Below are positions 31,956 through 33,041 of a DNA stretch of 64,000 nt, one piece after another. The notes under the pieces are model-generated. The model made no database searches, was not told the origin of the DNA, and saw nothing but the letters and a program-made list of their open reading frames with translations. Made by a program: the position numbers and the translations under genes. Source of the DNA: Prevotella sp. Lineage in GTDB: Bacteria; Bacteroidota; Bacteroidia; Bacteroidales; Bacteroidaceae. The stretch covers positions 124,001 to 188,000 of the forward strand of contig SUYH01000003.1 in the NCBI GenBank assembly GCA_015060535.1, read 5' to 3'. Numbering within the stretch: the stretch's first letter is position 1; each line of letters begins with the position of its first letter.

Positions 31956-33041
31956 CCAGGGCACGTTCTTCGTCAGCAACCGTATCAGCGGCGGCAACCG
32001 TTTCGGCATCGGAGGCGGAGTGGTCAGCGTACCGCCACAGGCCTTCACGCCTGCCTGCGATTTCATGGCCTGCAGCACCTGCTTCAGCCGATACGGCATC
32101 CCCTTCCGCGGCTCCTTCAGTGCATTCTCCAGCGTTTGCCGATATTCAGCCTCACCCCCTTCCCCTCTCCAAGGGGCGAGGGGCGTAGATACATTATTAG
32201 ACATTTTCTGCCCTTGAGAGTATTCACTCCCCTCGCCCTTTGGAGAGGGGCTGGGGGTGAGGCTCCAGTAGTTGGGTATGACCGCCATCATTTTCTCCAG
32301 CGAGTATCCGCAGATGCTACGGATGGTCACCGCCAGTTCGAAGGTCAGCGCATTACGGTCGCCCTCCACGGGTTCCTTGCCGCCATTGAAGAGCTCCCAG
32401 TACTTCTGGATGATATCCTTATACAGCATCCCGTTGTACTTCGCCTCCGGGTCGTAGACTACCGATGGCTGATGGCTGATGGCTGATGTTTGAGAACTGT
32501 AACACTGTAACGCTGTAACTTCTTCCATCTCAAAGATGGCATCGTCCAGGAACAGCAGTTCCTTCTCCGATGTCGTGAAGAACACGCGCGTGATGTCCTT
32601 CGCACCCTTGTCATACTCCACCTCCAGCAGTTCGCTGGCCCAGCGGAGGTTCTCCTCCTGCGTCAGCTCCCGTCGGCGACGGAACACCAGATGGTAGCCC
32701 CGTCCGCGCGCACTCTCCTCCAGCATCAGCAGTCCCAGCTCTTGCCGCTTAGCCAGGATACGCTCCTTGATCTTCGGCATCTCGTCGGCCTCGATATGGT
32801 CGATGTCCATGCCCACCGTGTTGCTCATGCGCGTCGAGCCCTTCAGCGTGCCGTCCGCGTTGGGCAGACAGCTATAGCACATCTGCACCAGACTCGCCTT
32901 CAGTGCCTCGTCGCCCTGGCGGATGCGTGCCACGTTCTGCACCTGGAACCCGCCATTGCGCAACTTCAGATACTCCTCTCTCGTCAGGACGGGGCGCATC
33001 ATCTTCGCCCCGTTCTGCATGTAAATCATGTGTATACTCAT
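31938..33041 (-). pseudogene. N-terminal fragment of BT4734/BF3469-type (VirE-N/primase-like) protein
   Basis: MSIHMIYMQNGAKMM...VGMDIDHIEADEMP...ESARGRGYHLVFRRRRELTQEENLRWA; frame ends shortly after LIRLLTKNVPW. Confidence 0.8.
32148..32264. mobile_element. 117-bp MITE-like pair of inverted REP-like repeats inserted in frame in the primase ORF
   Basis: 39-bp arms 32148-32186 and 32226-32264, inverted, 39-bp spacer; same outer termini AGCCTCACCCCC as the DUF559 cassette. Confidence 0.85.

Follow-up and report, generated by a model that had tools for sequence, protein, structure and literature searches.

A 117-bp palindromic segment translated within a primase gene of Prevotella sp. is probably a nuclease-less, in-frame copy of a selfish element that has palindromic ends and carries a DUF559 nuclease gene in its full form. 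The 39-bp hairpin units at both ends of the segment recur in dozens of unrelated genes, and a DUF559 gene bounded by units of the same kind is present in the same window, that is, in the whole 64,000-nt stretch of DNA analyzed here.

Palindromic element in the primase gene

The element and its host gene comprise the following features:

32148..32264, minus strand: in-frame palindromic element of 117 bp in the primase ORF; its 39 codons read SLTPSPSPKGEGS-EYSQGQKMSNNVS-TPLAPWRGEGGEA
32226..32264, plus strand: 39-bp hairpin unit, first in gene sense; its minus strand codes for SLTPSPSPKGEGS
32187..32225, no strand: 39-bp spacer; its unit-proximal part is GAATACTCTCAAG
32148..32186, minus strand: 39-bp hairpin unit, second in gene sense; its minus strand codes for TPLAPWRGEGGEA
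31938..33092, minus strand: host ORF, N-terminal part of a BT4734-like_N (VirE-like) primase, assigned from PF08800 and genus homologues
30730..31896, minus strand: primase gene continued in another frame; its homologues are single ORFs

Two 39-bp copies are separated by a 39-bp spacer and face outward as in the DUF559 cassette, as had been noticed in the first-pass annotation, and both match the units of that cassette at 28876–28914 and 29311–29349. The minus-strand reading of the element is SLTPSPSPKGEGSEYSQGQKMSNNVSTPLAPWRGEGGEA, bounded by VIPNYW and EYRQTLENALKEPRKG, and the 39 residues added after VIPNYW in the translation of ORF 31938–33092 are exactly those given earlier. The arms are identical at 35 of 39 bases, and as single-stranded DNA the element folds with –44.1 kcal/mol, compared to –17.5 ± 2.6 kcal/mol for dinucleotide shuffles (z = –10), a stability far beyond chance. 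This is a property of the pair only, as a lone single-stranded 39-bp unit is not significantly more stable than its shuffles (z = –0.6). Spacers of 117-bp pairs elsewhere, in other genes as well as in other genomes, have ends similar to GAATACTCTCAAG.

Alignment with primase homologues upholds the proposed in-frame insertion, as the 117-bp segment is absent from all 17 aligned homologue rows. The insertion site is between VIPxYW and WRxTLENALKEPRKG, where the closest homologues have short unrelated linkers of 13–19 residues, so the net gain is about 20–26 residues, and not the clean 39 that the first-pass annotation had assumed; the element itself preserves the frame, and its length keeps the primase reading frame open, as stated there. 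In two close relatives the linkers at this site are themselves palindromes: a hairpin, CCCCTCCAAAAGGAGGGG, behind AGCCTC in G020, which is a relative of the 39-bp unit, and AAAAGTACACAAAA...TTTTGTGTACT in G025. The site is thus a hypervariable linker that accepts palindromes repeatedly.

The host ORF matches PF08800 (BT4734-like_N) weakly, just below the Pfam cut-off (E 5.6e-4), and its genus homologues are single ORFs of about 690–820 aa. The window gene is split into two ORFs by a 1-nt frameshift near 31955, approximately 200 bp downstream of the insert and unrelated to it, where relatives read TGGTTCTAC and the window TGGTCTAC; one T is missing, and the N-terminal ORF ends early. This frameshift is either real or an assembly error; with it, this particular primase may be non-functional, and tolerance of the insert is not arguable from this gene. 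Another linker of the primase, at 32464–32520, has a second repeat-like in-frame stretch, GATGGCTGATGGCTGATG...AACTGTAACACTGTAACGCTGTAAC, with an inverted relative at 40455–40485.

DUF559 cassettes

The cassette of the window is located at the lysS–gpsA boundary and consists of:

28876..28914, minus strand: left hairpin unit, read as the LysRS C-terminus SLTPDPSPKGEGSK
28929..29345, plus strand: DUF559 nuclease ORF of 138 aa between both units
29311..29349, plus strand: right hairpin unit

The ORF matches PF04480 above the cut-off (E 8.8e-36) and PF18741 (REase_MTES_1575) below its cut-off (E 3.3e-8), and exactly fills the space between the outward units, as do two other DUF559 ORFs at unit loci of other genomes. 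Three times a coherent nuclease ORF was located between a pair of outward units (the window in this genome, G000; G023; L195), and each time it was DUF559; in the same three the cassette ends match dispersed units. In G003, G026, and G034, the cassettes that were examined have ends that do not match the units dispersed in these genomes. No DUF559 match was obtained in some unit-bearing genomes (G032, which is 97% complete and has 14 units, G027, and G014), and genus-wide no clear correlation is seen between the presence of DUF559 and that of the units.

Throughout Bacteroidota, hairpin inverted ends at DUF559 genes are clearly above shuffles in 24 of the 46 tested loci; among short stand-alone DUF559 loci tested, no significant inverted repeat was found at approximately 40%. 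Full cassettes are about 470–520 bp long. Many DUF559 matches lie inside long open frames: whole cassettes are present in frame in the LeuRS, MetH, HsdM, HsdR, ABC-F, and helicase genes, with hairpins visible at both borders of most of them, and DUF559 is also fused to guanylate kinase, RNase H, and other proteins. Four genomes (L063, L072, L331, L333) have the LeuRS cassette where the editing domain begins, between residues corresponding to 236 and 240 of the solved chain 1h3n, and a fifth has it at another place in the gene; the MetH cassettes of two genomes (L345, L350) are inserted between the two B12 domains, corresponding to residues 752 and 772 of chain 9ssp. That four genomes have a cassette at one and the same LeuRS site, and two at one MetH site, may be due either to common ancestry or to homing-like reinsertion.

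The LeuRS with DUF559 is the only LeuRS copy in each of the four genomes checked; the enzyme must therefore either function with the interruption or be rescued. Pfam scans of ten host–DUF559 ORFs revealed no splicing domain, that is, no intein or Hint domain. In the open-access literature we found nothing relevant that links DUF559 to palindromes, inverted repeats, or LeuRS. For annotation, the DUF559 “domains” of LeuRS and MetH are to be read as insertions rather than native domains, and peptides of the SLTPxPSPxGEGS and TPLAxWRGxGGEA types in Prevotella-type proteins as mobile DNA.

Location and reading frame of the hairpin units

A search of the 2.9-Mb genome yielded 37 candidate regions of the unit, and full copies other than the DUF559 cassette are nearly all in frame inside genes. 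The hosts are era, guaA, asnB (two sites), recO, kdtA, genes for a P-type ATPase, an MFS transporter, an ABC ATPase, DUF3109, AraC-type regulators, and a glycosidase, cobalamin genes, and about eleven HU-HIG paralogues; host gene names with no Pfam or PDB match were read from translations. Orthologue alignments of era and of the two asnB sites demonstrate clean insertions. In era, the net insertion is 39 bp; this genome has one full-length era copy, so that an essential gene contains the insert. The insertion at asnB site 1 has a decayed in-frame 27-bp remnant in G019 and is absent from nine other orthologues, and that at site 2 is absent from ten. Relatives of AsnB, Era, and GuaA with solved structures in PDB have no inserted segments.

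In approximately eleven HU-like DNA-binding paralogues (L010, L012, L013, L016–L019, L021, L023, L025, L026), the unit is located in the glycine-rich C-terminal tail, which ends with SAGFETGGE or SAGFETGN; HU-HIG was assigned for the one that was scanned. In era (L020, after NKID; alignment L131), 9-bp CTAGT-type repeats stand in frame directly behind the 39-bp unit, and variable versions are observed at the same loop in relatives. Arrays of a 9-bp CTAGT repeat are also found in the window at 36520–37459, inverted around an ORF (36644–37297) for a 23S_rRNA_IVP-like four-helix bundle, with a third array at 42350–42449. The arrays and this ORF are possibly a second ORF-plus-repeat system, in which the repeat period is also divisible by three. 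Tandem 33-bp repeats are present at 54315–54587.

Among 35 genus relatives, the unit is present in 17, with up to 78 copies. An exact-pattern scan of named genomes identified it mainly in rumen Prevotella, Prevotellaceae, and Bacteroidaceae assemblies, as well as in one of Chitinophagaceae. The commonest form of the family is the single 39-bp unit, and short two-ended forms range from 105 to 276 bp; pairs of 117 bp, with the same length and similar spacer ends, are found in unrelated genes of G000, G032, and G034. In G023 (L123–L126), pairs vary from 105 to 225 bp, partly via a repeated internal segment of the ELYTSQQ type, with all lengths being in-frame.

The scanned loci contain 103 elements, 60 of them in frame within genes, 21 intergenic, 19 at gene edges, and 3 frame-breaking. 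Moreover, genomes differ in the location of their units. Among the 49 named genomes, 32 have in-gene copies and no intergenic ones, 6 have intergenic copies only, and just 1 has both, compared to 10.2 mixed genomes expected (permutation, p < 2e-4). All 30 elements of G028 are intergenic, and none of those sampled in G003 and G026 is in frame; the units there bound intergenic palindromes of about 245–268 bp. Sampled units of these three genomes (L091–L110, L309–L328) are intergenic and lie within longer palindromes. The unit consensus of the intergenic-type species is nearly the same as that of the in-gene species, and no other single result of the analysis is as surprising as this split between species whose units are nearly alike in sequence.

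Counting the family and its lengths modulo three, a check suggested by the first-pass annotation, supports the preservation of the frame. Besides the 60 in-frame elements of 103, 29 of 36 distinct in-frame pairs have a length divisible by three; the remaining pairs do not, and in most of these the two units are in different codon phases, so that the gene frame is still intact. Of the de-duplicated solo in-gene units, 35 of 53 have one orientation and codon phase, reading SLTPxPSPxGEGS. In this orientation a single phase accounts for 35 of 38 units, though all three phases are open, and 33 of the 36 pairs start in it as well.

The unit is conserved as DNA and not as a peptide. The non-consensus rates at codon positions 1, 2, and 3 are 0.053, 0.072, and 0.075, with no excess variation at third positions that would indicate peptide-level selection in the unit; the variation is located in the hairpin loop and one dinucleotide, and both observations argue for a DNA-level constraint. 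The most likely cause of the frame bias is that insertions in the other phases, with their worse peptides, are weeded out, so that the least harmful peptide survives. No target consensus is seen upstream of the unit, and the downstream signal is the element interior. None of 71 pairs is flanked by a direct repeat of 3–8 bp, that is, by a target-site duplication, and 2-bp matches are at the chance level.

Possible origin and relation to known systems

A full-length selfish element would consist of a DUF559 nuclease gene between 39-bp hairpin ends that are stop-free in most reading frames. Such ends would allow full cassettes, short two-ended forms, and single units to lodge in genes and to be translated as an extra peptide; the short forms may have arisen by internal deletion of the full element, and one of them, of 117 bp, would have entered the hypervariable linker of the BT4734-like primase. 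We infer that DUF559 cuts DNA and mobilizes both full and short forms via the hairpin ends, generating no target duplication. The earlier designation of the primase segment as a non-autonomous derivative is thus retained insofar as the segment is related to the DUF559 cassette, shares its ends, and lacks the nuclease, with mobilization by DUF559 being the conjectural part. The label “MITE” fits it in part: the element is short, has terminal inverted repeats, and lacks coding capacity, but the 71 pairs lack target-site duplications, and the family has no known transposase. Beyond that earlier view, the single 39-bp unit turns out to be the commonest form, and whole DUF559 cassettes are found in frame in other genes. 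It is quite conceivable, if somewhat short of probable, that palindrome-ended DUF559 cassettes in general are gene-inhabiting selfish elements of Bacteroidota, translated within essential proteins such as LeuRS and giving rise to nuclease-less in-frame 117-bp pairs and 39-bp units that add linker peptides to many proteins.

Several other explanations are less likely. The units might be REP-type palindromes moved by a RAYT (Y1 tyrosine transposase), with DUF559 as another bounded passenger; hairpin units, inverted pairs, and some intragenic copies are indeed REP/BIME-like, as far as described in passages of PMC3733652, and GTAG is found outside many units in G003, G026, and G011. However, G003 has 67 units and no Y1_Tnp matches, the only Y1_Tnp match in G000 is partial and away from any unit, outward units were not found to enclose any Y1 ORF, and the in-gene units have neither the GTAG tag nor an outer flank consensus. 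RAYT has fared worse than DUF559 as a candidate mobilizer, and we regard this explanation as unlikely. It is decidedly unlikely that the inserted peptides are useful linkers under selection, that is, domesticated coding repeats, with the DNA repeat as a by-product. The strong preference for the SLTPxPSPxGEGS phase, the recurrence of the unit in the glycine-rich tails of many HU-HIG paralogues, and insertions common to several species, e.g., at asnB site 1, could be understood in this way, but variation is not raised at third codon positions compared to the first and second ones and tracks the hairpin loop and one dinucleotide, orthologues are normal without the peptide, and the intergenic copies of other species have nearly the same consensus.

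Skipping of the units at the mRNA or translation level, as in bypass elements, would make their in-frame appearance incidental and would suit palindromic inserts within essential genes. Skipped elements, however, need be neither stop-free nor frame-preserving, whereas the in-gene copies are almost all both, and only 3 of 103 elements are in genes with a broken frame, which makes skipping very improbable. Finally, the open frame is what one would expect of a native conserved primase domain that is palindromic by accident, yet this explanation is refuted by the absence of the segment from all aligned homologues; the occurrence of the same sequence in dozens of unrelated genes and the deviation from shuffles also speak against it, and we give it virtually no credence. 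The preferred reading remains that of a nuclease-less copy of a DUF559 element. With a candidate enzyme gene that has the same ends, a large set of recent in-frame insertions in bacteria of gut and rumen, orthologous sites that are empty, and species with strictly intergenic or strictly in-gene units, the unit family allows tests of how repeats that live in genes spread and of whether the linkers they add to proteins are useful.

Among known systems, inteins and homing endonuclease elements also place a nuclease domain, translated in frame, in essential genes. The DUF559 cassettes resemble them in this respect, as well as in sharing one LeuRS site in four genomes and one MetH site in two, but the DUF559 insert has no apparent splicing domain and would stay in the protein, and nuclease-less end pieces of the family are dispersed genome-wide. 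Bacterial MITEs (ERIC, Correia/NEMIS, RUP), according to passages of PMC2229807, are similarly short and gene-less, with terminal inverted repeats and some in-frame ORF fusions; unlike them, the unit family has no target-site duplication or known parent transposase, and single-ended 39-bp units are its commonest form. REP/BIME palindromes with RAYT genes (REPtrons), as presented in parts of PMC3733652, share with it hairpin units, inverted pairs, a unit-bounded nuclease gene, and some intragenic copies. The nuclease of the unit family, however, is DUF559, which is restriction-endonuclease-like and not a Y1 HUH transposase, its in-gene units have no GTAG or CGTC tag, and one set of lineages has the units mostly in genes. 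GTAG, observed behind many units only in G003, G026, and G011, is the tag of one REP superfamily.

The closest precedent, and a clear one for in-frame palindromes in genes, is the Rickettsia palindromic elements (RPE; Ogata et al., 2000). In PMC2229807, PMC10969869, and PMC3733652, these are described as in-frame palindromes of approximately 100–150 bp in many unrelated protein genes, conserved housekeeping genes among them, with open frames; RPE-4 and RPE-6 are short hairpin units, single or dimeric, and intragenic REPs have been catalogued as well (PMC3733652). The passages on RPE name no mobilizing enzyme (PMC2229807, PMC10969869, PMC3733652), and what these elements do to proteins is largely unexplored. 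The primase element, likewise a palindrome (117 bp), has further copies in the genome, which interrupt unrelated genes in frame and are missing from orthologues; it comes from another group of organisms, the likeness is one of description, and membership by descent is not claimed. In contrast to RPE as described there, the unit family has a candidate full-length nuclease element with the same ends that itself inserts in frame, and related species differ in where the units lie, exclusively between genes in some and exclusively inside them in others. In-frame palindromes being already known from Rickettsia, what is new here is a candidate enzyme gene with the same ends, and if palindrome-ended DUF559 cassettes are indeed gene-inhabiting elements, no enzyme would have been tied to RPE-like elements before DUF559.
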